From NCBI GenBank assembly GCA_943329845.2, contig CALQFM020000022.1, positions 1-54,327 on the forward strand: a DNA stretch of 54,327 nucleotides, read 5' to 3'. Shown here in pieces: positions 15,539 through 54,077 of this stretch. The position numbers and the translations under genes are program-made. Source of the stretch: Candidatus Kuenenia stuttgartensis. GTDB lineage: Bacteria > Pseudomonadota > Alphaproteobacteria > SMXS01. The notes beneath the pieces were generated by a model. The model was not told where the DNA came from, did no database searches, and was given only the letters and a program-made list of their open reading frames with translations. Every line of letters starts with the position of its first letter. Within the stretch, counting starts at the first letter, position 1.

Positions 15539-15578
15539 CATGAATGGGCCGCGCCGTCGCCGGCGCGGCCCATTCATG
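15539..15578. terminator. Strong bidirectional hairpin terminator
   Basis: A perfect 18-base-pair stem, CATGAATGGGCCGCGCCG, with a TCGC loop and its complement. It starts right after the MFS stop codon and lies 12 bases past the end of the convergent TetR gene. There is no long T run, but the position and stability make a two-way terminator the best reading. Confidence 0.8.
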
Positions 15579-15589
15579 CACCATTGCGT

Positions 15590-16234: not shown

Positions 16235-16270
16235 ATGCCTTGAATCCACTCCCTGCCGGCTGTCGGCCTT

Positions 16271-16290
16271 TAAAGTCAAAGTCGACTTTA
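16271..16290. promoter_or_regulatory. Putative TetR operator in the regulator-P450 intergenic region
   Basis: TAAAGTCAAAGTCGACTTTA holds a perfect 12-base palindrome, AAAGTCGACTTT (16278-16289), and a second overlapping inverted repeat TAAAGTC...GACTTTA. It lies 37-56 bases upstream of the TetR start in an AT-rich stretch, and about 210 bases upstream of the P450. Size and position suit a TetR site. Confidence 0.6.
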
Positions 16291-16497
16291 TATTAACTGG
16301 ATTGAGGTCTAATTTATCGTGCATCGAGCGCGCCCGGCAACCGCGAATCTGTCACATTTGCAACCACCGGTGCAACGCGAAGACTGGCTTGCCTTAGGGC
16401 GGCCGATCCCGCGGGGAAGACAAGGGTGCCACGTCGCAAACGGCACGCTTGATGAGGGCGGCGCGCGCGGCGGCCGCCGGAAGGGGAGAGCGAACCG

Positions 16498-17745: not shown

Positions 17746-17791
17746 TAATACAGCCCACTAAGTCTGACGCTCGACGCGAACCCACCCGACG

Positions 17792-19597: not shown

Positions 19598-19660
19598 TGC
19601 ACCCAACCATCTCCCATTCGATGATTCCACGATGCCAATGGCGCGCCCTCAAGGCCGTCC

Positions 19661-20587
19661 ATGCTTGATATCGGGCTGTGCATGACCGTCAAGGACGAGG
19701 CGGACAACATCGCCGACTGCCTGGCGGGCATTGTCGATCTGTTCGCGCAGGTGGTGATCATCGACACCGGCTCCACCGACGGGACGAGGGAGTTGCTGCG
19801 CGAGCGCCTCGGCATCGAGCCGCTGTTCATGCCGCTCGACCCCGATGAGTGCTGCGCACTGTCGAGCCCGCGCAATCTGGGGTTCGAGCAGCTCGGAACG
19901 CCCTGGCTGATGACGCTCGATGCCGATGAGCGGCTCGACCGCGCAGAGCTGGAAGCACTGGTCGCGATCGACGACCGGGATCTGCCGGCGGGGGTCATCT
20001 TCGGCTGGGATACGTCGTACGGGCCGAACGAGATCGTTGAGGATTACAAGCTCATCCTGTTTCGCCGGCACCACCGCCACCGCGGCCTCGTCCACGACAC
20101 CGCGCAACCGAGTCTTCGCGAAACCGGCGAGTCGGCCTGCTGGTCGTCGCTACTGCGAATCCAGCACTATCCGAGCCGGCAGGGCATACCGCAGAAGGAC
20201 GACTGGTACGCCTGGCGGCTCGACTGCGCGCGCCGCCGGGAGCCAGACTGGCTTCGCTACCACTGGTTCAGCGGCTACATGGCGTACCGGCTGGGTCACG
20301 CAGCCGAGGCCGAAACGCTGATGCGGGCTGTGCATCAGGCGAGGCCGCCGCTTTTCCCGGTCGAATCGCTCAACGCATCGATGGTCCTGGCGTCGATTCA
20401 CGCCGCGCGCGGCCAGCGTGCCGCAACGGAATTGGTCGTCGAGGAAGCGCTGCGATATCACCGCCAGGTCGCTGAAGACTTCGAGATCAAGGTCAATTTT
20501 CGGCTGGGGCCCTGGCTGGAAAGCGCCGCGGAGCACGCCGCCCGTGGTAATCTCGACGCGATAACGCCCTACCCATTTCCCTACTGA
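19661..20587 (+). CDS. Family 2 glycosyltransferase
   Basis: 308 residues, GT-A fold. Seen: LCMTVKDEADNIADCL at the nucleotide-binding N-terminus, VIIDTGSTDGT, and TLDADERL holding the DxD-type metal site. The C-terminal third is helical (YMAYRLGHAAEAETLMRAV), like TPR sequence attached to many SunS/WaaE-like members. It would transfer a sugar from a nucleotide sugar to a lipid, peptide or small molecule. AAGG upstream of the ATG; 16 bases before the next gene, so probably translated from the same message. Confidence 0.88.
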   Translation: MLDIGLCMTVKDEADNIADCLAGIVDLFAQVVIIDTGSTDGTRELLRERLGIEPLFMPLDPDECCALSSPRNLGFEQLGTPWLMTLDADERLDRAELEALVAIDDRDLPAGVIFGWDTSYGPNEIVEDYKLILFRRHHRHRGLVHDTAQPSLRETGESACWSSLLRIQHYPSRQGIPQKDDWYAWRLDCARRREPDWLRYHWFSGYMAYRLGHAAEAETLMRAVHQARPPLFPVESLNASMVLASIHAARGQRAATELVVEEALRYHRQVAEDFEIKVNFRLGPWLESAAEHAARGNLDAITPYPFPY

Positions 20588-20603
20588 AGCCGGAGACCCG
20601 TGC

Positions 20604-22193
20604 ATGCCAGCTCCCGTGATCGCGATCGGCCTCGACGCCCTGGCGCCCGGGCTGCTGGAAGCCTGGACCGCCGAGGGCAAGCTGCCGACCCTGGCGAAGC
20701 TGATGGAGCAGAGCCTCTATGCAAGGCAGCGGAACTTCAGCCTCTACCGCACCGAGAACAGCTGGCTCACCCTGCTGCATGGCTGCTCGGCCGAGACGAG
20801 CCATGAATGGGGACACCAGGATTACGACGAGGGCAGCTACGAGTTCAGGGAACGGGCGGCATACGAATTCAAGCATTACCAGCCCTTCTACGCGCTGGGC
20901 GACCGGAAGCGCGTCGCGGTGTTCGACGTACCGCTGACCGGTCTGGTCGAGGGCGTTAACGGAGTCCAGTTGCTGGGATGGGGCACCGAAGTCAACCAGA
21001 TCCTGCGCGAGTCGTCGCCACCGGACCTGATGACGCGGATGATCGAGCGCCACGGGCGGCATCCGCTCTACGACACGATCACCAACGCCGACGATGGCTC
21101 CGAGACCCTGTCCTACCGCATCCCCTGCCTCTACGACATGGATATCCAGCGGTCGATCCGCGACAAGCTGATCGTGGCGGTCCATCAGCGCACCGCGATG
21201 ATCCGCGACCTGATGCGGCAGGAGCGCTGGGATTTCCTGATGGCGATCTACGCGGAAATTCATACCGCCGGCCACATGTTCTGGCACCTCAGCCAGCCCC
21301 ACCCGCTGCACGACACGATGCAGCCGCTGGCCGGCAGCGACTTCCTGCTCGACATCCTCCAGACCATCGACGCCGACCTGGCCCTGCTGATCGACGAGAT
21401 GCCGGAGGATACGCAGCTGTTACTGTTCTCGCCCCATGGCATGCAGGCGAACTCCATCGACCTCTATTCCATGTTCTTCCTTCCCGAGCTGCTCTACCGC
21501 TGGAGCACCGGAGAGGCTGCGTTCAGCGGCCAGGCATCGGGCACAGAAGTACCGGCGCACCGGTTCGATTTCAGGCGTCACTGGAGCCAGGAGGTCTGGG
21601 ACCTGCGGTCGGCGCATGGCGATGCGATCCTGGAAACTCCCGCCGAGCAGGAAGCCCGGCACGATCCGCTCGACTGGGATCCGGGCAACTGGTACCGCCG
21701 CGCCTGGCCGATGATGCGCGCCTTCACCATGCCCGGCTATTCCGAAGGCCTGATCCGCGTCAACGTCGCGGGTCGCGACGGCCCCGACGGCGTCGATCCC
21801 GCCGATTTCGACAAGGTCTGCCGCGAGATCGAACACCTCGTCTCCGAAGTCGTCGACCCCCGAACCGGGCGCACCGTCGCCCAGCAGGTCGTGAGGGTGC
21901 GGTCGACACCGTGGGAGGATACCGTGGACAGGTCGCCGGCCGACCTGATGGTGCTGTGGCACGACGACCTCACGGCGGATTCCGTCGAGCATCCGCGCCT
22001 TGGCCAGATCGGCCCCATCCCCTATTTCCGCAGCGGCGGCCACGCGACCGAAGGCTTCGTCATCGCCCGCGGCCCCGGTTTCACGCCCGGCCTCCGGGTG
22101 GACGGCATCAGCACGCCCGATGTCACGGCGACGATCCTCGACCGGCTCGGCGTTGCCATTCCCGACCATGTCGACGGCCGGCCGATCGCGTAG
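20604..22193 (+). CDS. Alkaline phosphatase-superfamily protein (type I phosphodiesterase-like)
   Basis: 529 residues. The superfamily core is visible: GLDAL with metal ligand D11, a TENSWLTLLHG segment where the nucleophile Thr/Ser lies, a histidine in IHTAGHMFW (H224), and a C-terminal SGGHATEGFVIARGPG. The usual SDHG metal motif reads SPHG (276-279), so one Asp ligand is replaced by Pro. It may bind a single metal, use another residue, or be inactive as a phosphodiesterase. No signal peptide, so it is probably cytoplasmic. Cluster context suggests action on the same product as the ATP-grasp and glycosyltransferase. GGAG precedes the start. Confidence 0.78.
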   Translation: MPAPVIAIGLDALAPGLLEAWTAEGKLPTLAKLMEQSLYARQRNFSLYRTENSWLTLLHGCSAETSHEWGHQDYDEGSYEFRERAAYEFKHYQPFYALGDRKRVAVFDVPLTGLVEGVNGVQLLGWGTEVNQILRESSPPDLMTRMIERHGRHPLYDTITNADDGSETLSYRIPCLYDMDIQRSIRDKLIVAVHQRTAMIRDLMRQERWDFLMAIYAEIHTAGHMFWHLSQPHPLHDTMQPLAGSDFLLDILQTIDADLALLIDEMPEDTQLLLFSPHGMQANSIDLYSMFFLPELLYRWSTGEAAFSGQASGTEVPAHRFDFRRHWSQEVWDLRSAHGDAILETPAEQEARHDPLDWDPGNWYRRAWPMMRAFTMPGYSEGLIRVNVAGRDGPDGVDPADFDKVCREIEHLVSEVVDPRTGRTVAQQVVRVRSTPWEDTVDRSPADLMVLWHDDLTADSVEHPRLGQIGPIPYFRSGGHATEGFVIARGPGFTPGLRVDGISTPDVTATILDRLGVAIPDHVDGRPIA

Positions 22194-22302
22194 CCTACGT
22201 CCGGAACATCCCTGCCAAACAACCTGGTTTCGCGGCACGGGTCCTACCATGCGACGCGCCTTGACACCCTTCCGTACCTCCCCTTAAATCAGCGTCCGAC
22301 GG

Positions 22303-24402
22303 ATGGGGAGCGGGACGATTAGGCAACTCCTGGGATCGACCGTGGCGGCTGCCGCGCTTGCGGCGGCGCTGTCTCAAGGCGCCCCGGCAACCGCGGAAGA
22401 AGCCAGTCCGCCAACCGTCAAACCGCCCGCCGAGCATGTCGTCGTCACTGCGACCCGTGAGGCGACCAGGCGGACCGACGTGCCGGAAAACACCGGCGTG
22501 ATTGACGACAAGGCGCTGGCGGAAGCCCATGTGGTGCATCCGTCCGAGATCATGGGCCGCATCCCCGGCGTCTACCAGGCCTGGCTGAGCGGCAACCATC
22601 ACGTGACCGCGATCCGCCAGCCGATCAATTTCAACCCGCTTTATCTCTACCTGGAGAACGGCATCCCGAAGCAGGCGCCGGGTTTCTTCGAGACCAACGC
22701 GATGTTCGACATGAACGTGTCCCAGATCTCGCGCATGGAGATCACCAAGGGACCCGGCACGGCGCTTTACGGATCCGATGCCGTCGCCGGCGTCATCAGC
22801 GTCTTCACCCTGCCGCCGCCCGAGGATTTCTCCGGCAGCGTCCAGCTCGAGGGCAGCACGCGCGGCTACAAGCAGGCGCTGATCTCGCTGGGCGGCACCG
22901 TCGGCGCCCACGGCCTGCGCGCTGATTTCAACCTGGCGCATGACAGCGGCTGGCGCGACGACACCGAGGCTGACCACCAGATGGGCACCCTCACCTGGAA
23001 CGTCGACAATGGCGGCAAGCTGACGGTGCGCAACACCCTGATCCTGACCCGGGTCAACCAGGATTCGCCCGGCTCGAACCTGAACCGCACCGAGTACAAG
23101 AACACCCCGAAGATCAACCTGTCGCCCATCGACTTCCGGCTGGTCGAGGGCGTGCGGTTCTACAGCCAGATCGATTACGACCTGGGCGACAGCCTGCTGA
23201 GCCTCAATCCCTATGTGCGCTGGGGCCGGACCAAGCTGATGCCGTTCTTCCAGCTCGCCTTCGACCCGGCCTATTTCGACGAAAACGCCACCTCGGTCGG
23301 CGCCCAGCTCAAATTCCGCCACGACTTCTCGGACAGCCTGCGGCTGATCGCCGGCAGCGACGTGGACTTCACCAGCGGCAGCCGGATCGACACCCAGATC
23401 CGGCCGGTGCGCAACGGCCGGTTCTACGTCAGCTATACCGAACTGGGCACGATCTACGATTTCAAGGTCAAGGCGCTGACCCTGTCGCCCTACGTCCACG
23501 GCGAGTGGCAGATCACCGACCGGCTGCGCGCCACCGCCGGCGTGCGCTACGATTACACGCACTACGACTACACCACCAACCTGCCGCCCATCGTCGATCC
23601 GCGGGATGCGCACAACCGGCCGCCGAGCCAGAGCTTCCACTACAATAATTTCACGCCCAAGGCGGGCCTGACCTACGATATCACCGACCAGCTGAACGCC
23701 TTCTTCTCGTACCGGCAGGCGTTCCGTGTGCCGACCACGACCCAGCTGTTCAGGCCAGGCACCTCGTCGCGCTCGACGGACCTGAAACCGGTGAAGGCGG
23801 AAAGTTTCGAGCTGGGCCTGCGCGGCGGCTGGGAGAGGGTCAGCTTCGACCTGTCGGTCTACACGATGCAGATCAAGGACGACATCCTGGTGTTCACCAA
23901 CAACGCCACCGGCGTCCGCGACATCCAGAACGCGGGCGACACCAGGCACAAGGGCTGCGAGCTGGGCGTCACCGTCGCCCTCACCGACAATCTGGAAACG
24001 TCGGTGTCCTATGCCCGCACCGACAACCATTTCATCGAATGGTTCCCGGTGGCGACCGCCGACCTGTCGGGCAACAAGATCAACCGGTCGCCCAGGGACG
24101 TGGGCAATGCCCGCGTGACATGGCGCCCGTCCTTCCTCAACGGCGGCCGGTTCGAGGTGCAGTGGGAGCATGCGGGCAAGTACTTCATGGACGACGACAA
24201 CACCCAGGTCTACGAGGGCCACGACCTGATGCACCTCGCCGCCAACATGTTCGTGGTGAAGAACGTCGAGCTGTTCGTGCGCCTGCACAACGTGACCAAT
24301 GCGCGCTACGCCACCAACAGCCGTTACACCGCCTTCGGCGGCCAGGAATTGAAGCCCGGTTTGCCGCGCACGCTGTTCGGCGGCGTGGGGGTCAGCTTCT
24401 AG
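22303..24402 (+). CDS. TonB-dependent outer-membrane receptor
   Basis: 699 residues. A signal peptide (Ala-rich, ending near ATAEE) is followed by a TonB box-like EHVVVTATR, the plug domain (RIPGVYQAW, EITKGPGTALYGSDAVAGVI) and a 22-strand barrel ending GVGVSF with the terminal Phe expected for barrel insertion. It imports a scarce ligand such as a siderophore or other small molecule across the outer membrane. Its place at the end of the P450/ATP-grasp/glycosyltransferase run suggests that it takes up the product of that run or its metal complex; this is inference. Gap of 109 bases from the preceding gene. Confidence 0.93.
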   Translation: MGSGTIRQLLGSTVAAAALAAALSQGAPATAEEASPPTVKPPAEHVVVTATREATRRTDVPENTGVIDDKALAEAHVVHPSEIMGRIPGVYQAWLSGNHHVTAIRQPINFNPLYLYLENGIPKQAPGFFETNAMFDMNVSQISRMEITKGPGTALYGSDAVAGVISVFTLPPPEDFSGSVQLEGSTRGYKQALISLGGTVGAHGLRADFNLAHDSGWRDDTEADHQMGTLTWNVDNGGKLTVRNTLILTRVNQDSPGSNLNRTEYKNTPKINLSPIDFRLVEGVRFYSQIDYDLGDSLLSLNPYVRWGRTKLMPFFQLAFDPAYFDENATSVGAQLKFRHDFSDSLRLIAGSDVDFTSGSRIDTQIRPVRNGRFYVSYTELGTIYDFKVKALTLSPYVHGEWQITDRLRATAGVRYDYTHYDYTTNLPPIVDPRDAHNRPPSQSFHYNNFTPKAGLTYDITDQLNAFFSYRQAFRVPTTTQLFRPGTSSRSTDLKPVKAESFELGLRGGWERVSFDLSVYTMQIKDDILVFTNNATGVRDIQNAGDTRHKGCELGVTVALTDNLETSVSYARTDNHFIEWFPVATADLSGNKINRSPRDVGNARVTWRPSFLNGGRFEVQWEHAGKYFMDDDNTQVYEGHDLMHLAANMFVVKNVELFVRLHNVTNARYATNSRYTAFGGQELKPGLPRTLFGGVGVSF

Positions 24403-43122: not shown

Positions 43123-44472
43123 ATGGATGGCCAATCGCCCCCGGCACCGCAGGTTTCCTTCGGCGAGTTGTTCCGCACCTTCTGCAAGATCGGCCTGCTG
43201 GGCTTCGGGGGCCCGGCCGGTCAGATCGCGCTGATGCACCGCGTACTGGTGGAGGAGAAGCGGTGGATCGGCGAGGGCCGGTTCCTGCACGCCCTCAACT
43301 ACTGCATGCTGCTGCCCGGCCCGGAGGCGCAACAGCTCGCCACCTATATCGGCTGGATGCTGCACCGGACACGGGGCGCCATCGCCGCCGGGCTGCTGTT
43401 CATCCTGCCCGGCTTTTTCATCATCGTCGCACTGAGCACGGCGTACATGCTGTTCCACCAGACGGCCTGGCTGGGCACCGTGTTCTTCGGGCTGAAAGCC
43501 GCCGTACTCGCCATCGTCGTCGAGGCCCTGCTCCGCGTGGCGAAACGGGCGCTCAGGACCAGGCTGATGGTCGCGGTCGCCGCGCTCGCCTTCCTCGCCC
43601 TGTTCCTGTTCCGGGTGCCCTTCCCGCTGGTGATCGCGTCGGCGGGCATCGTCGGCTACCTGGTGGCGAGGATCAGGCCCGACCTGCTCGCGCCACCCGC
43701 CGGCCACGGCGCACCGGCCGGTCCGGAGGCCATCGACGCGCTGCCGCCGGTGCGGCCGACCTGGCGCCGGGCGCTGGGCATCACTGCCGTTTGGGCCGGC
43801 ATCTGGGCCAGTCTGCCGTTGGTGCTGATGGCCCTGTTCGGCTGGGACAGCGTCTATGCGCCCATCGCGCTGTTCTTCTCCAAGATGGCCGTCGTGACGT
43901 TCGGCGGCGCCTACGCGGTGCTGAGCTACGTGGCGCAGGAAGCCGTCGGCACCTATGGCTGGCTGCAGCCCGGCGAGATGCTGGACGGGCTGGCGCTGGC
44001 CGAGACGACACCCGGGCCGCTGATCCTGGTGCTTACTTTCGTCGGGTTCATTGCCGGCTTCCGCGACGCGGCCGGGCTCGACCCGTTGACCGGCGGCCTG
44101 CTTGGTGCGCTGCTGGCCACCTGGGTAACCTTCGTGCCGTGCTTCCTGTGGATCCTGCTGGGCGCGCCCTATGTAGAGCACTTATTGGGAAACCGCGCGC
44201 TGACGCTCGCCCTGGGCGCCGTCACCGCCGCGGTGGTCGGCGTGATCCTGAACCTGGCGCTTTGGTTCGGCTTGCATGTCCTGTTCGCCGCGCACCGCCC
44301 CATGAGCCTGGGTCCGCTGGTTCTCGATCTTCCGGTGCCATCCTCGCTCGATCCAGTGGCGCTGCTTTTGGCCGCCGCCGCCATGATCGCGCTGCTGCGC
44401 CTCAAATGGGGCGTCCTCCCCGTCCTGGGGGGATGCGCCGTCGCCGGCGCCGCGATGCGGCTGATCGCCTAG
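43123..44472 (+). CDS. chrA: Chromate transporter ChrA family
   Basis: 449 residues, the long bidomain form with two homologous halves. First half: FGELFRTFCKIGLLGFGGPAGQIALMH and LLPGPEAQQLATYIGW. Second: ALFFSKMAVVTFGGAYAVLSYVAQEA and LAETTPGPLILVLTFVGF. Around 10 membrane helices. It exports chromate from the cytoplasm in known members. A 13-base palindrome AAGCGCGGCGCTT (43074-43086) lies 36 bases upstream. Stop is three bases from the end of the convergent ATP-grasp gene. Confidence 0.95.
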   Translation: MDGQSPPAPQVSFGELFRTFCKIGLLGFGGPAGQIALMHRVLVEEKRWIGEGRFLHALNYCMLLPGPEAQQLATYIGWMLHRTRGAIAAGLLFILPGFFIIVALSTAYMLFHQTAWLGTVFFGLKAAVLAIVVEALLRVAKRALRTRLMVAVAALAFLALFLFRVPFPLVIASAGIVGYLVARIRPDLLAPPAGHGAPAGPEAIDALPPVRPTWRRALGITAVWAGIWASLPLVLMALFGWDSVYAPIALFFSKMAVVTFGGAYAVLSYVAQEAVGTYGWLQPGEMLDGLALAETTPGPLILVLTFVGFIAGFRDAAGLDPLTGGLLGALLATWVTFVPCFLWILLGAPYVEHLLGNRALTLALGAVTAAVVGVILNLALWFGLHVLFAAHRPMSLGPLVLDLPVPSSLDPVALLLAAAAMIALLRLKWGVLPVLGGCAVAGAAMRLIA

Positions 44473-44475
44473 CCC

Positions 44476-46614
44476 TCAGGCGGCGGCGCCCGCGACCACG
44501 AGCCGTATGCCGGCCAGGCCGCGCCGGATGATATCGGGGCCATGGCCCATGCTCCACGCGGCTGCCGCCGCGAGCGCGGCGTCCTCGGCCGTGCACGCGA
44601 TCTGCGAACTGCCGCCACCAAGGCTCGCCAGATCGATGACATCGCCGCCGACACGCAGGAGCCAGCCACCGCCGCTCCGGTCGACGATCACGGCGTCATG
44701 CCCTGCCTTGACGTGCTCACGGACCGCCGCCATTTCGCCCCCTGCCGACGACAGCACGACGCGGGCGTTGCGCAGCGAACCAATGAGCCGCCGCCACGCC
44801 GCCGCCCGGGAATCGACGACCACGCCGCCAAGGCTGATCGGCAACAGCACCAGCGCGAGGTGGTCCAGCGCGGCCGGGTCCAGGTCTACCCCGTCAAACC
44901 GTGTTCCGGCCAGGACGACCGTGCTGCACCGGTCGAACGGCATGTATGTCCGCAATACTGAACTGTCCGATACGGCGACGACCATCGCGTCGATGTCCCT
45001 GTCGATCAACGGCGTGAGCGCCGAGGCGAAAAGGTTTGGCGGCGCATCATGAAGGATCCTGCCGCCGCTGCTGGCCTGCCGCGAAGAGGCGACGGCGGTG
45101 CGCAATCCCGCCGCTTCCAAAATCCGCGCCACCAGCGCAGGCAGGGGCGAGTCCGTGGCGGCACCGACGACCATCGCGATGGGAATGCGTCCCTCGCCTG
45201 CCACCAGGGTCCGGAGAATCTGGCCATAGAGATGCTTGGAGGTGGTGTTGCCGATCGTCGGCTGGGCGTTCACCTCGCAGATCGCCGCGCCCGTCTCTTT
45301 CCAGGACCGGGAGATGTCGGGGATCAGCAGGTCGATGCCGGCCAGGTCCAGCCGCAGCGCGGCGGCGGCCCGTTCGGCCAGCAGCCGGTTGTCCGGATGT
45401 ACCTGGCCGAACACTTCCTGAGGCGTGCCACCCGACGCGACATTGGCCGCGCGGCGCAGACGAATCCGCTCGCCGGCGGCCGGCACCGTATCAAGCGTCA
45501 TGCCGTACTCGGCGAGCAACTCGGCCGCCTCCCGGTCAAACAGCAGCGGCTTGAGTGGCGCGTCGGCACGCCGGGCACGGGCAGGCTCCTGGTTCAGGCG
45601 TTCAACCAGTTGCGCCACCGTGCTGATGCCGTCGCCGGTGACCCCGCCCGGCACCCGCTCGAGCGCCCAGATCATCCGGCCGTCGTGGACCACCAGGCGA
45701 AAGTCGCGGCCGTGCACGTGTTTTTCGACCATGACGTTGGCGGAAGCCGCCCGCGCCGCCTCGTATGCCTGGATCACGCCTCTGTCGTCGGTGAGCCCGG
45801 CGGCGACCGCAACGCCGCCATCCCTGTCCGACGGCTTGACGACGACCGGATATCCGATCTTGATCGCGGCGTCGACCGCCTCGTCGGCCGACGCGACCGC
45901 CAGGTGCCTGGGCACCGGCAGGCCCGCCTGACGGAGCACAGTCGCCGCCGCCATCTTGCTGCGGGCCAGACGCATGGAGATGGCAGGCGTGACGTCGGTC
46001 AGCGTGCTTTCGAGCCAGCGGGCCCGTGAGCCCATGCCGATCTGGAACACTTCCGCGGCGATCCTGAACCACGGCATCCTGCTGTCATAGGCCGCCTGCA
46101 GGAAGTGGCGCGTATTGGATCCGCCAAAACGCACGCCCACATACCGGTCCACGAAGGCGGCCACCCGAGCTTTGGCGTTCTCCACGGCCTGCGGCTCCTG
46201 AATACCACCGCCGAGCAGGTCGCAGAGCAGATCGACGACGATCCCCAGCGCCATGCCCGCAGCATCCACGTTGACGGTCGGCAGGGCGAGCAACAGCACG
46301 CCGTCCCGCGCGCCCAGAAGGCGGCCCTGGTCGAAGACAGGCTGGCCGCCGGCACGCTGCAGTTCCGCGGTCCAGCGGATGATCAGGTCGGCGATGGACG
46401 ACACGGGTGCGTCCTCGCCGTCGCTTCGCGGAATCAGCGTCGACAACATCGCATCGATGGCCGCCCAATCGGTGGTGGACAGGGCCTTCGCCGTCACGGT
46501 GGCCTTGAGGAATTGCTGCCTCAGACCATAACCAAAACCACCCGTGGAGAACTCTCGCCGAAGCACGGTGACCGCGCGGGCAGAAGGGATTCCCGCCGTG
46601 CTTTCCTCGGCCAT
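44476..46614 (-). CDS. Cyanophycin synthetase-like ATP-grasp ligase with dead Mur domain
   Basis: 712 residues. N-terminal domain (about 20-195), bridge GMGSRARWLESTLTD, ATP-grasp (about 218-470) with K260 in VVVKPSD, VEKHVHGRDFRLV, LAGIDLL and E447/N449 in CEVNAQPTIGN. Residues 478-712 follow the course of the CphA Mur-ligase domain (for example DAMVVAVSDSSVLRTYMPFDRC) but the P-loop reads VVGAATDSP where GTNGKTTT is expected, so this part should not bind ATP. Predicted to join a carboxylate to an amine in one ATP-dependent step. Eight bases after a methyltransferase gene, same strand; paralogue at 17792. Confidence 0.82.
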   Translation of the reverse strand: MAEESTAGIPSARAVTVLRREFSTGGFGYGLRQQFLKATVTAKALSTTDWAAIDAMLSTLIPRSDGEDAPVSSIADLIIRWTAELQRAGGQPVFDQGRLLGARDGVLLLALPTVNVDAAGMALGIVVDLLCDLLGGGIQEPQAVENAKARVAAFVDRYVGVRFGGSNTRHFLQAAYDSRMPWFRIAAEVFQIGMGSRARWLESTLTDVTPAISMRLARSKMAAATVLRQAGLPVPRHLAVASADEAVDAAIKIGYPVVVKPSDRDGGVAVAAGLTDDRGVIQAYEAARAASANVMVEKHVHGRDFRLVVHDGRMIWALERVPGGVTGDGISTVAQLVERLNQEPARARRADAPLKPLLFDREAAELLAEYGMTLDTVPAAGERIRLRRAANVASGGTPQEVFGQVHPDNRLLAERAAAALRLDLAGIDLLIPDISRSWKETGAAICEVNAQPTIGNTTSKHLYGQILRTLVAGEGRIPIAMVVGAATDSPLPALVARILEAAGLRTAVASSRQASSGGRILHDAPPNLFASALTPLIDRDIDAMVVAVSDSSVLRTYMPFDRCSTVVLAGTRFDGVDLDPAALDHLALVLLPISLGGVVVDSRAAAWRRLIGSLRNARVVLSSAGGEMAAVREHVKAGHDAVIVDRSGGGWLLRVGGDVIDLASLGGGSSQIACTAEDAALAAAAAWSMGHGPDIIRRGLAGIRLVVAGAAA

Positions 46615-46622
46615 CCCGCGCG

Positions 46623-47408
46623 CTAACGCCGCGGTTCCATGGGCGTCGCCGCCACCATGAAAAGCTCCCAGCGCATGCCGACCCCGTCGGGCTGCGGATC
46701 CACACCAAGCTCGGCGGCGACGGTGCGGGCGGTTTCCTCGGGCGTCGATGTCCGCAGGTCGAACAGGCGGTGGGCGAATTCGCCCAGGTCGTCCAGGTTG
46801 GCGAAGCGCCAGTGGAACGGCACCCGTTCGGCGGACAGGATCTCCCAACCCCCTCGCCGCAACTCGTCCAGCGTATGGTCGCCCAGATAGCTGCCCACAT
46901 GGCCGGTGCTGTTGTGCCGGTCGACCCAGCCGTCGAGGAAGCGGGAGACCGCCGACGCCTCGTGGACGTCGGCCAGCACCAGCCGGCCGCCCGGCCTGAC
47001 TACCCGGGCCAGCTCGGTAAACAAGGGCATCTTGTCGTCGAGGTGGTGCACGCCGGCAATGGAGAGCGCCGCATCGACACCGGCATCGGCCCAGGGCAGC
47101 GGCAGCAGGTCCACATCCTGTCCGGTGGCGCCATGACCGAAGGAGGCGCAGGGTTCGTGGCCAAGCCAGGTGCAGCCCTGCGGCAGGTATTTTGCCAGGT
47201 AGCCGCCTCCCGCGGGGACGTCGGCGACCAGCGCGCCCGGCACCAGGCCGGCGCGGGCGATGGTGTTGAGGAATTCCTCGCGGCGGGCTTCGGGAAAACG
47301 GGTCATCGCGCCGTCATAGGGGGCGCCACGGAGCTGGAACAGCTCCTCGTAGTTCGCAGGAGCCGCGCCCGCGTCCATCGCCAACTGGGTATTCTTGGGC
47401 TTGGCCAT
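46623..47408 (-). CDS. SAM-dependent methyltransferase, class I
   Basis: 261 residues. VADVPAGGGYLAKYL is the SAM-binding loop, then DLLPLPWADAGVDAALSIAGVHH and LARVVRPGGRLVLADVHEAS. Small-molecule methyltransferase of the UbiE-like fold, substrate unknown. It directly precedes the ATP-grasp gene and lies in the chorismate cluster, so methylation of the cluster's intermediate is the natural inference. 183 bases separate it from the divergent SDR. Confidence 0.85.
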   Translation of the reverse strand: MAKPKNTQLAMDAGAAPANYEELFQLRGAPYDGAMTRFPEARREEFLNTIARAGLVPGALVADVPAGGGYLAKYLPQGCTWLGHEPCASFGHGATGQDVDLLPLPWADAGVDAALSIAGVHHLDDKMPLFTELARVVRPGGRLVLADVHEASAVSRFLDGWVDRHNSTGHVGSYLGDHTLDELRRGGWEILSAERVPFHWRFANLDDLGEFAHRLFDLRTSTPEETARTVAAELGVDPQPDGVGMRWELFMVAATPMEPRR

Positions 47409-47591
47409 TGCTTTTCGTCGTCCTCAAGGCACTTGATCGGCATATGGCTCGGCGTGCGCCCCCACATATCCGCGCCGGATATTAGAGCAAGAGCGGAGCC
47501 GAAGCCACGCTCCGAAAGGGGTACGGCCCTGTCGACATCGGGGGCGTCCGGTCGTACGCTGCCGCGCATCCGCTGGAACGGGAGAGAAGCG

Positions 47592-48362
47592 ATGGGACGT
47601 CTCGAAGGCAAGGTCGCCGTCATCATGGGCGCGTCGGGCAAGGGCAGCATGGGTCAGGCCACCGCCCGCCGGTTTGTCGAGGAAGGCGCCACGGTGGTCG
47701 TCGCCGCACGGCGTCCGGAACCGCTCGAGGCGCTCGCCGCCGAGATCGGCGCCACCGCCATCCCCTGCGACATCGCCAGCGACGAGCAGATCGCGGCGCT
47801 TGCCAAAGCGACAGTCGACAAGTTCGGCCGGGTCGACGTAGCGGTGAACTTCGCCGGCATCAACGTGCAGTCGCCCATCGCCCAGATCGACGCCGCCAAG
47901 CTGAAGGACGCCATCGACATCCAGTTCACCGGCGCCATCCTGTTCATCAAGCACATGGCCGCTGCCATGCCGGAATCGGGCGGCTCGATCATCATGACCT
48001 CGTCGCTCACCGCCACGCTGCACCCACAGGGCATGACCGCCTATGCGGCGACCAAGGCGGGTGTCGACCATGCGGTGATCATCGCGGCCAACGAATACGG
48101 CAAGCAGAACATCCGGGTGAACGCCATCACGCCGGGCTTCATCCCGACCGAGATGACCAACGGCATCATCGCGGCGGCGCCGGTGGTACCGAAAGCGTTC
48201 CTGAGGGAGACCAGGCTGGCGCGGCTTGGGACCGTCGACGACATCGCCAACGCGGCGCTTTGGCTGGCCAGCGACGAGGCGTTCGTCACCGGCATCAACC
48301 TTCAAATCAGCGGCGGCGCCCAGCTGGGCAAATTCCCGTCGGCCGAGGATTTCGGTCGTTAA
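47592..48362 (+). CDS. Short-chain dehydrogenase/reductase
   Basis: 256 residues. Cofactor loop is GASGKGSMGQA (a longer variant of GxxxGIG), NFAGI, catalytic S/Y/K in TSSLTATLHPQGMTAYAATK, and a GFIPTEM segment. GGGAGAGAAG precedes the start. It is the only plus-strand gene in the chorismate cluster, dividing it in two. It may be a cluster enzyme with its own promoter or an unrelated insertion. Confidence 0.9.
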   Translation: MGRLEGKVAVIMGASGKGSMGQATARRFVEEGATVVVAARRPEPLEALAAEIGATAIPCDIASDEQIAALAKATVDKFGRVDVAVNFAGINVQSPIAQIDAAKLKDAIDIQFTGAILFIKHMAAAMPESGGSIIMTSSLTATLHPQGMTAYAATKAGVDHAVIIAANEYGKQNIRVNAITPGFIPTEMTNGIIAAAPVVPKAFLRETRLARLGTVDDIANAALWLASDEAFVTGINLQISGGAQLGKFPSAEDFGR

Positions 48363-48368
48363 CCTCGA

Positions 48369-49598
48369 TCAGCCCGCCAGGACCACGCCGACCTCTCCGA
48401 GTTTGATCAGCGTCTCCGCCCACTCCCCCTCGGGCGTGGACTGGCTGGTCACAGCCGCGCCCACCCAGGAATAGAACTCGTCGCCCGCCCGATAGACGGT
48501 GCGCAGCACCTGGGTCATGGACGCGCTGCCGTCCGGCTCGATAACGCCGACCAGGCCATAGAATGGTCCACGCGCGCCGGATTCAATGGCCATCAACGCC
48601 TCGTAGCCGCCGGTTGCCGGCGCGACGCCAAGTGGCAGCACGGCGCGGATGCCGTCGGCGATGCCTCGCCCCGGTCCGTACCTGACCTGAAACCGGGTCA
48701 TCAGGTGGCGAAGCTGCCGCAAGTCGAGGATCTCCGGGCCGGCAGAGGTGACCGTACCCAGCCCCGAGAGCGCACTCCCGAACGAGGCGGCGGAGTTGGC
48801 GTGTTCCGCCACGTTCTTGGGATCGGCCTGGAACCGGCGGCGCAGTTCGGCGTCGGCATCGGGATCGGTGCTGCGCGGAAAGGTGCCGGACAGCTTGTAG
48901 GAAAGGAAGCCATCGCGATCGCCGACCATCAGCACCTCGGGACACTGGCCGGCCAGTTCCACGTCGCCCAGGTCCAGGTAGAAGCTGCGGCTCTGGCTGC
49001 TTGCCGAGGATACGCAGGAGAAGGACCGCAGCATGTCGAGCGCCGGCAACGCCAGGCGGCGGGCCACTGTCATGCGTTTGCGGGCATCGCCGGCGATCCA
49101 GGCCTGGGCCCGTTCGACGGTCCGGCGATAAGCGTCCGGCTCCGACCGGTCCAGCGTCGAGGCGAAGTGCACCGGACGGTCGCCGCAGGTGCAGGCCGGC
49201 ACCTCGAGGGCGGGTGGCGCGCCGGCCATCAGCGTCCAGCTTTCCGAACCGACCTTGAGCGCCAGGTCGGCCGCGCCGAGCCAGCAATCAGGGAATGGCG
49301 ACGGACGCGCTTCACCGGCTCCGGCGTTCAGCGCATAGGCGAAGAAGCCGAACACGTAGCGATCGCTTTGGCGAGCGAGGAAGTCGCCCGTCAGCGCCCA
49401 CACCTCGGCGCGGTCCTGCGGCGTGATCGACAGAAACTCGCGCGCCCCGGCGCAAGCGACCACCGCCCCCTCGTTGCCATAAAGGAAATACGGCCCGGGA
49501 GCGCCCGCCGCGCGCAGCGCCTTCAGCAGCCTTGCGCCGTTGCACCTGGCGTCGCCACGCGCGCAGTGCAGAGGGCTGGTCTCACCATTCGTCGCCAC
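48369..49598 (-). CDS. Chorismate-utilising enzyme (anthranilate/isochorismate/salicylate synthase-like), divergent
   Basis: 409 residues. The C-terminal half follows the chorismate-binding fold: CPEVLM, LSGTFPR, DPKNVAEH with its Glu, LRHLMT, PLGVAPATGGYEALMAIESGARGPFYGLVG, and a PEGEWAETLIK end with the expected acidic residues. Divergences: the DLxRNDL motif is replaced by SAASFGSAL, and near ARKRMTVARR the Lys/Gln used in isochorismate or anthranilate synthases seems to be Arg. So the reaction on chorismate is open: ammonia- or water-addition, or something else. No amidotransferase partner is in the window. GTG start two bases after the di-iron gene's stop. Confidence 0.75.
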   Translation of the reverse strand: MATNGETSPLHCARGDARCNGARLLKALRAAGAPGPYFLYGNEGAVVACAGAREFLSITPQDRAEVWALTGDFLARQSDRYVFGFFAYALNAGAGEARPSPFPDCWLGAADLALKVGSESWTLMAGAPPALEVPACTCGDRPVHFASTLDRSEPDAYRRTVERAQAWIAGDARKRMTVARRLALPALDMLRSFSCVSSASSQSRSFYLDLGDVELAGQCPEVLMVGDRDGFLSYKLSGTFPRSTDPDADAELRRRFQADPKNVAEHANSAASFGSALSGLGTVTSAGPEILDLRQLRHLMTRFQVRYGPGRGIADGIRAVLPLGVAPATGGYEALMAIESGARGPFYGLVGVIEPDGSASMTQVLRTVYRAGDEFYSWVGAAVTSQSTPEGEWAETLIKLGEVGVVLAG

Positions 49599-49600
49599 GG

Positions 49601-50380
49601 TCAGGTCCGCGGCTGCCCGAAGGCGCGTTGGTAGTCGAAGCGCAGCGGGTCGCAGGCGCCGTTCTGGATGGCGGCCAGCCGGGCGGGCGCGACCGGTGCC
49701 GAGAACTGGGCATTGCGCATGACGATCCGGTGCGTGAGCTGCTCCTCGACCAGTTCGCCCAGCAACGACCAGTCGGCTTCGGACAGGTCGCCCACCGAGC
49801 CGTGAAGGTCGCCGATACCGCGCAGCATGTGGCCGAATTCGTCGTTAAACACGACTTCGCAGGCCGCGGCGATCATGCGGTCGATGCCGCCACGCCCGGC
49901 GAGCTTCATGCCCTCCGAGTAGAGCGTGCAGTAGCCGCCTTCGGTGAACCGCTGGGCGCGCAGTCCCAGATCGCCATGATCGCGCCGGTGCCGGGCCCGC
50001 AGCGCCTGCAGCCGTTCATTCTCGGGCCATGCGCCAAGGCGTCGCAGGGCGTCGGCATCGGGCACCTTGCCCGATAACGCCTCATAGATTCCAGCGAACC
50101 CCATATAGTGGATGAACTCCTCGCGAAGCACGTCTAATTCCTCGAGAAACTCGGCGCGGGTGTCCGCGCCGCCGACGCCGTCGAAATTGTCGCGCGCCCA
50201 GAGCAGGCTGGGGAGCGCGCCGTCGAGCAGCTCCTTGTACATCTGCCGCACCAGCCAGAGCCGGTCGGTGTCCTGGGTGCGAACCGGGGAATCCCAGTAG
50301 GTGCGGACGATCTCCGCTTCGGCCGCCCAAAGCCGCTCGCAACGCTCGATCAGGCCGACGATGTGGGGATTGATGGTCAT
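49601..50380 (-). CDS. Ferritin-like di-iron protein, AurF-like motif spacing
   Basis: 259 residues, mainly helical. Candidate di-iron ligands: E50, E88-x2-H91 (REEFIH), E156 (YSEGMK), and E181-x2-H184 (NDEFGH). This E...ExxH...E...ExxH order is the ferritin-like di-iron signature. E50 to E88 spacing fits the E-x(28-37)-DExxH repeat described for the p-aminobenzoate N-oxygenase AurF; the second repeat is shorter (24). Plausible activities are N-oxygenation or hydroxylation of the aromatic product made upstream. No family assigned with confidence. Overlaps the preceding methyltransferase by four bases (ATGA). Confidence 0.6.
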   Translation of the reverse strand: MTINPHIVGLIERCERLWAAEAEIVRTYWDSPVRTQDTDRLWLVRQMYKELLDGALPSLLWARDNFDGVGGADTRAEFLEELDVLREEFIHYMGFAGIYEALSGKVPDADALRRLGAWPENERLQALRARHRRDHGDLGLRAQRFTEGGYCTLYSEGMKLAGRGGIDRMIAAACEVVFNDEFGHMLRGIGDLHGSVGDLSEADWSLLGELVEEQLTHRIVMRNAQFSAPVAPARLAAIQNGACDPLRFDYQRAFGQPRT

Positions 50381-51276
50381 TCGGCAATTCGTTCCGCGGT
50401 GATCAGGTAATGGCCGTCCGTATTGGGTACCGAGGGGCCGGTGACGCCGGCCGGCCCGTGGGGCGCGCTGCGTTCGAACCTGTCCAGCCGGAAGCCGGCG
50501 TCCTCGAAGAGGGCACGCAGGCCTTCGGCCGATCGAACGGGCAACGCCCAGAAATTGCGCGCGTGTCTTTGGGCCATCGCGACCACGTCGAGTACCGCGG
50601 CCTCGCGCGGCAGCATGACCGGCACCAGTTCGGCCACGCGCTGGAGAAAGGCCGCCGTCTCGTCATCGGAAAAGCGCACCACGTCGCCGGGGAAATCGGG
50701 CCGCACGCGCTGCACCGTGACCACGCGGCCGCCCGGCCGCAACACCCGCGCCCACTGCGCCACCAGCCGCGCCCGATCCGCATCGTCGAAATTGCCCATG
50801 AATGCATGGGTGTAGACAGCGTCGAACGCAGCTTCCGGCAGCGGGGCGAGCACGTCCTGGCACAGCGTCTCGATCGCCAGGCCGTGGCGCTCCGCGTACC
50901 ACTCGCAGATGCGCAGCGGCGTGGCGCACCGGTCCAGCACCACATAGGTCAGGGGCGGATCGGACGGTACGCGGGCGTCGGCGATCAGCTTCAGCATGGA
51001 ATAGTCGGCCGAACCGGTAATCAGCACCCGGCGAAATGACGGATCCCCGCTCATCCGTGCCAGTTCAGCGGAATAATGGGCTGCGTTGACGCCCGAGGTC
51101 GACATGATGCCCAGCATCCTGAGCAGTTGCCAGGCGCCGTGGTACCAGTCGCAACCGCCCGATTCGCCGTGCTGGCACAGGCCGGGTGCCCAGCGATGCG
51201 CCAGCAGCGCCGATGCCAGCAGTTCCTCGTCGGCCGGCGTCATTTCCGCCCGGCTCGAGGGCGAAGCACTGATCAT
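50377..51276 (-). CDS. SAM-dependent methyltransferase-like protein
   Basis: 299 residues. A helical N-terminal part (about 1-85) precedes a Rossmann domain: FRRVLITGSADYSMLKLI, LTYVVLDRCATPL, FDAVYTHAFMGNF and WARVLRPGGRVVTVQRV. The SAM loop is TGSADYS, a variant of the usual DxGxG. Overlaps both neighbours by four bases, ATGA at each side. Methylation of the cluster product, or, given its altered loop, a different role. The frame also stays open upstream as far as 52587, but that is a shadow of the PaaK gene. Confidence 0.75.
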   Translation of the reverse strand: MISASPSSRAEMTPADEELLASALLAHRWAPGLCQHGESGGCDWYHGAWQLLRMLGIMSTSGVNAAHYSAELARMSGDPSFRRVLITGSADYSMLKLIADARVPSDPPLTYVVLDRCATPLRICEWYAERHGLAIETLCQDVLAPLPEAAFDAVYTHAFMGNFDDADRARLVAQWARVLRPGGRVVTVQRVRPDFPGDVVRFSDDETAAFLQRVAELVPVMLPREAAVLDVVAMAQRHARNFWALPVRSAEGLRALFEDAGFRLDRFERSAPHGPAGVTGPSVPNTDGHYLITAERIAE

Positions 51277-52616
51277 GATCCCACCATGCACATGAACTCG
51301 TGGAACTTTCCATTGGGCCCCTTGGGCAGCTCGCCCTCGACCTGTTCGATAACAACCTCGAAGGGGTGTTTGACCTTTGTGCGCACGAGCGCCGTTATCC
51401 AGGACTGTTCGTGCTCGGTCAGCGGGTGGTCGGCGACGACTTTCATCTCCAGCCGTTCCAGGCTGGTCTGTATGATCTGGTACTGCTTGACCATGCGCGT
51501 GGCCTCCGGGTCTCGCATACCGAACTGCGGCCAGAACTTGCTGCCGTCGGGCAGCTTCATCAGGTTGCGTTCGCGGCCGACGATGCGCCGGAGCACCGGC
51601 AGGCCCCGTTTGCAGCCGCAGGGTTCGCCCACTTCGGCATAGTCCCGGATCTCGTAGCGCAGCATGGCGGTAGCGAAATTGGCCATGTCGGTGATGACCA
51701 CGCGGCCGATCTCGCCGGGCTGGCAGGGCCGGCCATCGGCGTCCAGCACCTCGAGGACGTGGCTCTCGGCCGTGCAGTGGTAGTTGCCGTGGGGACACTG
51801 GGCGGCAATCGAGCCCATCTCCTCGGAACTGTACTCGTCGAACAGCGGGATGCCCCAGCGGCTCTGAAAATCCGCCCGGAGGTCTTCCGACAGGGTCTCG
51901 CCGATGGTCATCACGCATTCCAGCCCGGCGGGCCGTTCGGGAGACTGATCGACCAACGCGCGCAGGTTGGAGGGGTAAGTCATCAGATAGGCGGGCTTGT
52001 ACCGGTCGAGGAACGCCAGCTGCTCGTGGACCGGGACGTTGATCGGCAAGCCGAGCGCGGGACCGGTGTGGAACAGCGCGGTCATCTGCGCGCCCCAGCC
52101 CCGGTACCGCGCCGGGTTGTCGACGCTGCCGGTCTTGATGTTGGCGCGGATCGCCGCGAAGGTCTTCATGGTGTTGAGGCCGCGCCAGCCCAGGTGGCGG
52201 ATGGTGGCCGCGGCGCGCAGCATGAAGCAGGCCGCCGTGCAGCGGACCGCCACGGGCTGGCCGGTGGAGCCGGAGGTGCGAAGGGTTCTCACCGCGCCGT
52301 GTTCCTTCGGCGGCTCCGTGTAGATGCCCTCGGCGGCATCTTGCATGTCGGCGCGGGTCAACAGCGGCAGCGACGCGAGCACCTCGAACGCCGTGTTGGG
52401 ATCGATCACACGGCCTTGCAGCTTCGGCCCGAAGAACGTGCTCGTCTCGGCGGCATGGCGCAGCCGCGCGGCCAGCTGCCCGGCCTGGAATCGGCGCAGC
52501 CGCTCGGGCTTTATCCACTGGCTTCGCTCCAGCTGGCTCAGATAGGCGAAGACCTGGCCTTGTCTCGGATCGATGACCGCCGGCCACACCAGCGTTTGCG
52601 AATGGGATCTCAGCAC
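51273..52616 (-). CDS. PaaK-like AMP-forming aromatic acid ligase
   Basis: 447 residues, similar in length to phenylacetate-CoA ligase. Adenylation motifs: TLRTSGSTGQPVAV (phosphate loop), DEYSSEEMG, MLRYEIRDYAEVG, and GRERNLMKLPDG; a C-terminal Lys lies in PKGPNGKFHEF. It activates a carboxylic acid, probably aromatic, as an acyl-AMP and likely a CoA thioester. First gene of the tightly overlapping four-gene run. GTG start with GAGGGGG upstream. No carrier protein in the window, so CoA or direct amidation are the options. Confidence 0.85.
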   Translation of the reverse strand: MLRSHSQTLVWPAVIDPRQGQVFAYLSQLERSQWIKPERLRRFQAGQLAARLRHAAETSTFFGPKLQGRVIDPNTAFEVLASLPLLTRADMQDAAEGIYTEPPKEHGAVRTLRTSGSTGQPVAVRCTAACFMLRAAATIRHLGWRGLNTMKTFAAIRANIKTGSVDNPARYRGWGAQMTALFHTGPALGLPINVPVHEQLAFLDRYKPAYLMTYPSNLRALVDQSPERPAGLECVMTIGETLSEDLRADFQSRWGIPLFDEYSSEEMGSIAAQCPHGNYHCTAESHVLEVLDADGRPCQPGEIGRVVITDMANFATAMLRYEIRDYAEVGEPCGCKRGLPVLRRIVGRERNLMKLPDGSKFWPQFGMRDPEATRMVKQYQIIQTSLERLEMKVVADHPLTEHEQSWITALVRTKVKHPFEVVIEQVEGELPKGPNGKFHEFMCMVGS

Positions 52617-52691
52617 CCCTTACCCCCTCTGTTCCTCGCCGACACTACATGTTTTACCGGATTTGCAACATCCCGGGCCGTGGGGTTCCGG

Positions 52692-54077
52692 TCATGCGGG
52701 CAGAGCGAACGGATGCGCCGCCTCGAACGCCCGGGCGGCGCGCAGTATCAGGGCTTCGGACCGCCACGGTCCCACGATCTGCAGGGCGATGGGCAGGCCG
52801 GATTTGGTAAGGCCACAGGGGACGCTGGCTGCCGGCTGGCCGGTGATGTTGAACGGGAAGGTGAACGGGGTCCAGGTACGCTTGTAGGCCTCGCCCTCCG
52901 GCCCGTAGATGCCGCGCCCGGCCTTGAACGGCGGCACCGGCGTGACCGGGCAAAGCAGCAGGTCGAAGTCCTGGTGGAACCGGGCCATCAGCTGGGCGAG
53001 CGCGCCCCTGTCGGCCATGGCCTGGTAATGCCGGAGGATCGGCTGCAGCGCGCCTTTCTGCGCCGAGCGCACCAGGAACGGGTCGCTGGCGGCCAGCGCC
53101 TCGTCGCTGGCGTTCTCCAGGTAGCGCGCGGTCATCGGCTGCCAGAACGCCAGGAAGGTGGCGAGCTGGCTGTCGAAACCGGGATCGGCCTCGACCACCT
53201 CGGCGCCCAGCGCGCGGAAGGCTTCCGCCGCACCCTGCAGCGCCTGCGACACCTCGGGGTCGAACGGGATCAGCCGCACGCCGTCCCAGAACGCCATGCG
53301 CAGGCCCCTGACTCCGTCGTCGAGCCCGGCAGCGAAGTCGGCATCGGGCGGCAGGGCGAGCGGGTCGCGAATGTCCGGCTGGGTGATGACGTTCATCATC
53401 AGCGCCGCGTCGGCGACCGTGCGGGTGATCGGCCCGGCCTGCGAGATCAGCGCCGAGACCCCGCCCGGATTGTGCGGCACCCGGTTCTGGGTCGGCTTCA
53501 GGCCGAACACGCCGCAGAACGCCGCCGGGATGCGGACCGAGCCACCCGCGTCCGTGCCCACATGCAGCGCGCCCATGCCCAGCGCGCAGGCCGCCGCGGC
53601 GCCGCCGGACGAGCCGCCAGGCGTCTTGTCCAGGTCCCAGGGATTGCGGCTGACGCCGTAAAGCGCGCTGTCGGTGACGCCCTTCCAGCAGAATTCCGGC
53701 GTCGCCGTCTTGCCCAGGATGATGCCGCCTGCGCCGCGCAACCGCGCAGTGACCGGCGCGTCCTGCTCGGCCCGGTGCGTCTCCGGAATGACCGGCGACG
53801 CATTGCGGCTGGGCCAGCCCTTGACGTCGATGTGCTCCTTGATCGACAGCGGCACGCCGTCGAGCGGCCCCTTCGGCTTGCACTTGCTCCAGCGCGCCTC
53901 GGACTTTTCCGCCTGCTTCAGCGCGCCCTCGCGGTCGAGCAGGATGAAGGCGTTGACGCCTTCGTTGCGCGCGTCGATGCGGTCGAACACGGCCTTCGTC
54001 ACCTCGACCGGCGACAGCGCGCCGTCCCTGTAGCCGGCGGTGAGATCGATCGCCGACAGGTGGACGAGGTCCGTCAT
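52692..54077 (-). CDS. Amidase, amidase-signature family
   Basis: 461 residues. Catalytic triad: K80 (LSIKEH), a cis-Ser in GGSSGGAAA (156/157), and nucleophile S180 in GTDAGGSVRIPA. Length is normal. Hydrolyses an amide such as a nitrile-derived, peptide or drug amide. GAGGAGGG precedes the start. It follows the partial SDR by 10 bases, so they are likely one transcript; its link to the chorismate cluster, 75 bases away on the same strand, is possible but unproved. Confidence 0.93.
   Translation of the reverse strand: MTDLVHLSAIDLTAGYRDGALSPVEVTKAVFDRIDARNEGVNAFILLDREGALKQAEKSEARWSKCKPKGPLDGVPLSIKEHIDVKGWPSRNASPVIPETHRAEQDAPVTARLRGAGGIILGKTATPEFCWKGVTDSALYGVSRNPWDLDKTPGGSSGGAAAACALGMGALHVGTDAGGSVRIPAAFCGVFGLKPTQNRVPHNPGGVSALISQAGPITRTVADAALMMNVITQPDIRDPLALPPDADFAAGLDDGVRGLRMAFWDGVRLIPFDPEVSQALQGAAEAFRALGAEVVEADPGFDSQLATFLAFWQPMTARYLENASDEALAASDPFLVRSAQKGALQPILRHYQAMADRGALAQLMARFHQDFDLLLCPVTPVPPFKAGRGIYGPEGEAYKRTWTPFTFPFNITGQPAASVPCGLTKSGLPIALQIVGPWRSEALILRAARAFEAAHPFALPA

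Follow-up and report, generated by a model that had tools for sequence, protein, structure and literature searches.

In benzoxazole clusters, aromatic acids are joined without a carrier protein, according to parts of PMC7204872 and PMC12118335. One ligase of this kind, NatL2, forms an ester from two 3-hydroxyanthranilates, and a part of PMC7204872 calls its zinc a unique feature. For the salicylate synthase MbtI, passages of PMC8008425 take Lys205 to activate water and Glu252 to protonate the leaving hydroxyl, with Mg2+ bound directly by Glu297 and Glu434 and through water by Glu294 and Glu431. Here we describe a locus that encodes relatives of both enzymes, at positions 44476-52616 of a stretch of 54,327 nucleotides from Candidatus Kuenenia stuttgartensis (contig CALQFM020000022.1; hereafter ‘the window’), which is one entire contig of a genome of 3.68 Mb assembled as 107 contigs. 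Its six principal genes code for a PaaK-like ligase, two methyltransferases (MT1 and MT2), a helical protein with a putative di-iron site, a chorismate-type enzyme and a CphA-like ATP-grasp ligase. They form a real, conserved and modular gene set, and a role in specialised metabolism is the best reading of the locus. More specifically, we lean, with reserve, towards a modular carrier-free locus: an acid provided by one module, the cassette, would be oxidised and methylated, and the ligase and the ATP-grasp enzyme would join it into a small aromatic conjugate.

Organization and conservation of the locus

The six genes lie on the minus strand at the positions given by an earlier, sequence-only reading of this DNA, and the ATGA overlaps between the ligase and MT1 genes and between the MT1 and di-iron-type genes, followed by gaps of two and eight bases, were re-derived from the sequence. 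The same reading had taken the six as one packed set, and in this it was mistaken: a short-chain dehydrogenase gene on the opposite strand sits between the chorismate-type gene and MT2 (Table 1). A single six-gene operon was therefore rejected, and the set divides into a cassette of four genes (52616-48369) and a pair (47408-44476). No carrier, polyketide synthase (PKS) or nonribosomal peptide synthetase (NRPS) domain was found in the genes scanned (43123 to 54077). Nor did we find a description of this gene set in the open-licence PMC literature, in agreement with the earlier remark that no described pathway has it. The idea of a carrier-free biosynthetic locus is retained as the best reading, the six-gene unit is abandoned, and the label ‘AurF-like’ for the di-iron-type protein lacks support from sequence.

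Ten genomes of the order were sampled, seven from the genus of the window and three from other genera (L-numbers denote individual loci and G-numbers genomes of the collection compared here). The di-iron-type gene is present in five of the seven genus genomes (that of the window, G003, G005, G006 and G007) and absent from all three genomes of other genera. Four of the seven show the complete layout between the same flanking genes: the window, L014 (G003; di-iron gene located by tblastn), L015 (G005) and L016 (G007), the last with an extra cupin-like gene after the chorismate-type gene. In L017 (G006), the cassette is present up to the contig end, which falls inside the chorismate-type gene. 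Ratios of non-synonymous to synonymous substitution (dN/dS) of 0.11-0.28 for the six genes against their genus orthologues, together with the layout in four of seven genomes, indicate that the arrangement is more than a product of chance. Conservation is lowest for the ATP-grasp protein (65-75% identity to L014-L016) and highest for the dehydrogenase (94%), which occurs in the genus with or without the cassette, and for the neighbouring amidase-signature protein (PF01425; 88-92%). Three of these places recur in the collection under second numbers (L016 = L031, L014 = L032, L017 = L030); L030 and L031 are titled Rhizobium and L032 Sphingomonadales, yet all lie in the genus of the window, and the titles look doubtful.

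The two genus genomes without the di-iron gene retain MT2 and the ATP-grasp gene. L028 (G002, 84% complete) has the amidase, dehydrogenase, MT2 and ATP-grasp genes and none of the cassette genes in the 19 kb read; in G002 the search for the di-iron gene covered the whole genome, that for the ligase and chorismate-type genes the 19 kb stretch. In L027 (G004), a different set occupies the space between amidase and pair, namely homologues of the PaaK-like ligase (54%) and MT1 (32%), a muconate-cycloisomerase-like enolase and an alpha/beta hydrolase, followed by a 364-residue protein without a family and then by MT2 (71%) and ATP-grasp (50%). The contents of L027 and L028 show that a variable cassette occupies a fixed place beside a standing MT2/ATP-grasp pair. 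Within the genus, the expectation that the six genes stay together is borne out in the four genomes with the complete layout but fails in these two of the seven, where the pair stands without di-iron-type and chorismate-type genes.

The same observation raises the possibility that two unrelated modules are merely neighbours, the cassette leading to one product and MT2 with the ATP-grasp enzyme, perhaps with the dehydrogenase, to another. Such independence is also suggested by L129 and L130, where a gene with a methyltransferase domain precedes an ATP-grasp of the same family and no cassette gene was found; these methyltransferases are not recognisably of the MT2 family (no MT2 match at 1e-4). 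Against it, MT1 and di-iron-type genes have an ATP-grasp-type gene as a neighbour in L033 and L045 as well (see below), and the cassettes found in the genus, including the different one of L027, are all at this site. We regard a mere neighbourhood of two modules as rather unlikely. Separate neighbourhoods for the ATP-grasp and chorismate-type enzymes, which the sequence-only reading had named as speaking against a cluster, are nevertheless seen in part, both in L027 and L028 and in L131, L132 and L133, where ATP-grasps of the window family stand beside other kinds of neighbours.

Table 1. Genes of the locus, with the evidence for each assignment
Feature	Position	Strand	Evidence and remarks
PaaK-like adenylate-forming ligase, cassette gene 1	51273..52616	-	Pfam AMP-binding 3.2e-9; closest PDB chains 6siw (identified as NatL2 from its residue numbers) and AjiA1
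MT1 methyltransferase, cassette gene 2	50377..51276	-	Methyltransf_11 1.8e-9; adjoins di-iron-type gene in 5/45 extra-genus loci
Di-iron-type helical protein, unnamed family, cassette gene 3	49601..50380	-	Invariant Glu/His set, fold model
Chorismate-type (MST family) enzyme, changed active site, cassette gene 4	48369..49598	-	Chorismate_bind 2e-36
Short-chain dehydrogenase between modules; pathway role putative	47595..48362	+	PF13561 9.5e-57
MT2 methyltransferase, pair gene 1	46623..47408	-	Methyltransf_11 7e-9; retained in L027, L028
CphA-like ATP-grasp ligase, shorter than CphA, pair gene 2	44476..46614	-	PRK14016 351 bits; PDB cyanophycin synthase E 1e-75

Relatives outside the genus

When the genome collection was scanned with the di-iron alignment A1, 48 loci were obtained, 45 of them from outside the genus and all titled as metagenome-assembled genomes (MAGs); L025 duplicates L040, and L101 and L109 are the L047 and L057 loci, respectively. 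With the window MT1 alone as query, MT1 was found next to the di-iron-type gene in L033 (49%), L045 (31%), L047 (39%), L057 (38%) and L077 (38%); L033, L045 and L057 contributed to the MT1 model itself, and L033 and L045 were the source of a second ATP-grasp model, so that these match their models by construction. The ligase is also present in L047 and L057. Weak matches to the ligase model were seen in L065, L066 and L068, and a weak MT2 match in L075. Genome-wide, a strong ligase relative occurs in five of 35 genomes with a di-iron locus (G306, G313, G314, G320 and G327) and in none of those carrying L033, L045 and L077. On the di-iron tree, the eight MT1-adjacent rows (the window, L030-L033, L045, L047 and L057) require two changes, compared with a mean of 7.6 in shuffles and with none of 500 shuffles as low, a figure aided by the near-identical genus rows on a tree whose deeper branches are long and weakly supported. 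Neither alignment A2 nor the tree includes L067, whose reading frame is interrupted, or L076 and L077, which are partial.

L033 is the only extra-genus locus with a chorismate-type neighbour, a gene fragment at the contig end (34%, E 6e-18). Among relatives of the L033 genome, none of 61 matched at E 1e-40, but the fragment of that genome itself missed this threshold, so little is shown thereby; in a sample of the phylum, two of 398 matched at E 1e-25, one being the window genome and the other 29% identical. Beside MT1, both L033 and L045 carry a gene for a protein of 343 or 344 residues. The L045 protein has weak LysX and RimK matches (8.5e-4 and 1.8e-3) and aligns to the window ATP-grasp alignment with a probability of 72% (E 3.3e-5). 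For the L033 protein, no Pfam or NCBIfam model scored at E<=1; alone it gave no signal against the window ATP-grasp alignment, and its single-sequence structural model was unusable (predicted local distance difference test, pLDDT, 34). A profile of this protein with seven relatives matched the L045 protein over 232 columns (97%, E 9.5e-11) and the window alignment weakly (E 0.0064). Both proteins are most likely members of the ATP-grasp superfamily, in a subfamily other than that of the window, the assignment of the L033 protein depending on its link to that of L045. The co-occurrence of di-iron and ATP-grasp genes near a chorismate enzyme in another species, proposed earlier as a check, was thus encountered once outside the genus, in L033, with an ATP-grasp-type gene of another subfamily and a chorismate-type fragment at a contig end.

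Other di-iron-type genes have different neighbours. Those of L025, L037, L039, L042, L052 and L067 adjoin an amidohydrolase gene and a gene for a 278-residue protein without a Pfam match, which may resemble the CmcJ/NvfI group, and an EamA transporter gene lies near most of them. The di-iron-type gene of L067 (1449-2321) seems to be interrupted, its matches falling in three stretches parted by stops. In L053, L054, L055, L062 and L063, from Defluviicoccus MAGs, an Amidohydro_3 gene and a cupin gene follow. The title of L035, Klebsiella pneumoniae, looks doubtful, since its protein forms a close group with that of L036, from a Betaproteobacteria MAG.

The PaaK-like ligase

The best PDB scores of the ligase are to 6siw (3.3e-20) and AjiA1 (5.9e-20), followed by PaaK 2y27 (4.1e-15); the residue numbers of 6siw chain A agree with the NatL2 numbering in PMC7204872. 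All four zinc ligands of NatL2 (Cys248, His254, Cys308 and Cys310) are kept in the window protein as C274, H280, C333 and C335, and these residues and the C-terminal Lys437 are invariant in 18 aligned relatives. The alignment with NatL2 stops at residue 348 of 447. All NCBIfam scores are below the cut-offs (DVU_1553 102 bits, FlxY 94, BagE/FevW 67, PaaK 36). In L101, L104 and L106, relatives of the ligase are paired convergently with MT1.

The ligase could instead be a CoA ligase for aromatic or other acids, acting with a methyltransferase and an oxygenase in a catabolic or detoxifying module. Its relatives are indeed multi-copy in some genomes (nine matches in G306) and can stand in tandem (three genes in L102 4339-8546, four in L108 1-4705); the neighbours at L057 are CoA-transferase III, acyl-CoA dehydrogenase and nitroreductase genes. 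The zinc site, however, matches that of a CoA-independent ligase, in a comparison confined to NatL2 and relatives of the window protein, and we know of no evident place in catabolism for a chorismate-type enzyme and an ATP-grasp ligase. A catabolic or detoxifying role seems to us distinctly improbable.

The chorismate-type enzyme

The solved relatives that score best are MbtI-type salicylate synthases (4.9e-19). The best NCBIfam model, TIGR03494, gave 98.5 bits against a cut-off of 325. All four complete orthologues compared have Arg, Asn, Phe and Ala at the positions of MbtI Lys205, Glu294, Tyr385 and Gly421, and retain the counterparts of Glu252, Glu297, Glu434, His334, Arg405 and Lys438; the Glu431 position is left out of the comparison. 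The Lys205 position is Gln in 26 of 28 other chorismate-binding proteins, with one gap (L198) and one misread row (L210); these 28 sequences, drawn from 31 loci, are by our reading mostly top-scoring TrpE-like proteins rather than synthases of isochorismate or salicylate. The changed residues and scores below all NCBIfam cut-offs led us to reject an ordinary synthase of salicylate, isochorismate, anthranilate or aminodeoxychorismate. The window genome has three proteins of the chorismate-binding family, that of the locus scoring lowest (127.5 bits), and G004 has two. A comparison of viral contigs with this protein gave five pattern matches and no relatives.

Because the active site is changed, an aromatic acid is only a putative product of this enzyme. 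The protein may have lost catalysis or use another substrate, in which case the pathway would not start from chorismate, a situation compatible with the other readings discussed here. The four substitutions fixed in every complete orthologue point this way; the retained acid, metal-site and other residues and a dN/dS of 0.18-0.26 speak against it, and we find it unlikely.

The di-iron-type protein

Neither Pfam, at E<=10, nor NCBIfam gave a match to the window protein; no relative was found among PDB sequences, where the profile search gave nothing credible. Across 46 sequences, E50, E88xxH91, E147 and E181xxH184 are invariant, a set that would be compatible with a di-iron site. The ligands of AurF comprise two ExxH motifs and further Glu residues, and both ExxH motifs are in register with AurF-family rows in an otherwise weak alignment. 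Membership in the AurF family (PF11583) was nonetheless rejected on sequence: none of 46 homologues matches at E<=10, profile comparison gave E 0.078, and the AurF model has no match in the window genome, compared with 31 of 142 sampled genomes.

Haem-oxygenase-like folds head the matches to the predicted structure (pLDDT 94): TenA comes first (Z 15.1, root-mean-square deviation 3.4, 205 residues aligned), followed by CADD (Z 12.9), UndA (12.8), HrmI (12.5) and, further down, the ferritin-like MiaE (11.7) and aldehyde deformylating oxygenase (11.2), values below about 13 being common among helical bundles; the best Foldseek E-value is 0.029. The AurF fold is not among the best 50 structural matches listed, which is compatible with AurF lower down. 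No member of alignment A2 matches PF14518, profile comparison with PF14518 proteins gave E 0.13 over 25 columns, and the single PF14518 match of the genome is on contig C2, away from the locus. We call the protein an unnamed family with a putative di-iron-type site on a predicted haem-oxygenase-like or ferritin-like bundle.

The ATP-grasp ligase and its paralogues

Residues 83-702 of the ATP-grasp protein align to positions 84-713 of the 871-position PRK14016 model, so that the protein ends before the C-terminal part of CphA. The cut-offs for cyanophycin synthetase are unmet (PRK14016 351 versus 877 bits; TIGR02068 293 versus 850), and no Mur-type P-loop could be recognised by eye in alignment A3. 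A full CphA polymerase was rejected on these grounds. Since the C-terminal part is absent and the P-loop not recognisable, polymerisation is improbable, and the enzyme is likely to catalyse one ligation.

Two further CphA-like ATP-grasps are encoded in the window genome. One lies in the window (17792-19597, plus strand), after a cytochrome P450 gene (16498-17745), with TetR and MFS genes upstream and genes for a family-2 glycosyltransferase, a phosphodiesterase-type protein and a TonB receptor downstream; this region (14072-24402) is possibly another small biosynthetic locus. The other, on contig C33 (L127 8046-11658), is followed by a sulfotransferase-like gene.

Proposed pathway and its significance

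In the reading that we favour, the cassette would supply a chorismate-derived carboxylic acid, which the di-iron-type protein would oxidise and MT1 methylate. The ligase could activate an acid as an acyl-adenylate and, in the manner of NatL2, couple this straight to a phenol or amine, with neither CoA nor a carrier protein as acceptor. In the standing pair, the ATP-grasp enzyme would add an amino acid or amine to a carboxylate, and MT2 would methylate. Gene content and order, conservation, the zinc-site residues, the predicted fold and the ATP-grasp domain are observed; that both modules serve one pathway, together with the order of steps, the substrates and the product, is what we infer. The layout in the genus and its dN/dS values, the adjacency of MT1 and di-iron-type genes outside it, with further partners in some of these loci and a clustering of such rows on the di-iron tree, the NatL2 zinc ligands and the lack of carrier, PKS and NRPS domains in the scanned genes argue for this reading.

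Several observations weigh against this reading. The pair persists without the cassette in L027 and L028, and an opposite-strand gene parts the modules. Outside the genus, 40 of the 45 di-iron loci have no partner at strong E-values, and the chorismate-type fragment of L033 is a solitary case. No export or regulatory gene was identified within cassette or pair. At the level of residues and models, the active site of the chorismate-type enzyme is changed, NatL2 Thr239 is Glu in the window ligase at a position variable among relatives, and the ligase scores higher on DVU_1553 and FlxY than on BagE/FevW, in each case below cut-off.

If our reading is right, this biosynthetic locus without carrier proteins may escape finders keyed to PKS and NRPS signatures. 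Nearly all relatives of these bacteria that we encountered are metagenome assemblies. Cassette exchange at one site in one genus would be a natural comparison of building-block supply before a standing ATP-grasp step. Two of the enzymes look unlike characterised relatives and are of interest alone: the chorismate-type enzyme with its remodelled active site, and the di-iron-type family, for which our searches gave neither a Pfam family nor a PDB sequence relative. A bolder extension, about which we are rather doubtful, is that the former, with Arg for the usual Lys or Gln, catalyses a reaction new to its family from chorismate or isochorismate, that the latter, as a new enzyme family, oxidises the product, and that the carrier-free ligase and the ATP-grasp pair lead to a new class of small aromatic conjugates whose building-block cassettes are swapped at a fixed chromosomal site.

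Comparison with described systems

The locus shares with NatL2-type benzoxazole clusters, as portrayed in parts of PMC7204872 (nataxazole) and PMC12118335 (closoxazole), a PaaK-family ligase with the NatL2 zinc ligands. It differs from them in having a di-iron-type protein, two methyltransferases and a CphA-like ATP-grasp enzyme instead of an amidohydrolase: no domain of the amidohydrolase type, which closes the ring in nat-type clusters, was found among the genes scanned, the neighbour being the amidase-signature protein.

MbtI-type salicylate synthases, the closest solved relatives of the chorismate-type enzyme, have its metal-site and acid Glu residues in common with it, whereas the window enzyme falls below the TIGR03494 cut-off and has Arg where MbtI has its general-base Lys, along with three other substitutions that are fixed in the four orthologues. 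CphA resembles the window ATP-grasp protein over most of the model and in the match to PDB cyanophycin synthase; unlike CphA, the window protein lacks the C-terminal part and a recognisable Mur-type P-loop and reaches well under half of the model cut-off. Lastly, the di-iron-type protein stands apart from haem-oxygenase-like di-iron oxidases in having no PF14518 sequence match and in also matching ferritin-like MiaE and aldehyde deformylating oxygenase, and it resembles these oxidases and TenA-type folds (UndA, CADD, HrmI, PolF) in its conserved Glu/His set and probably in its predicted fold.

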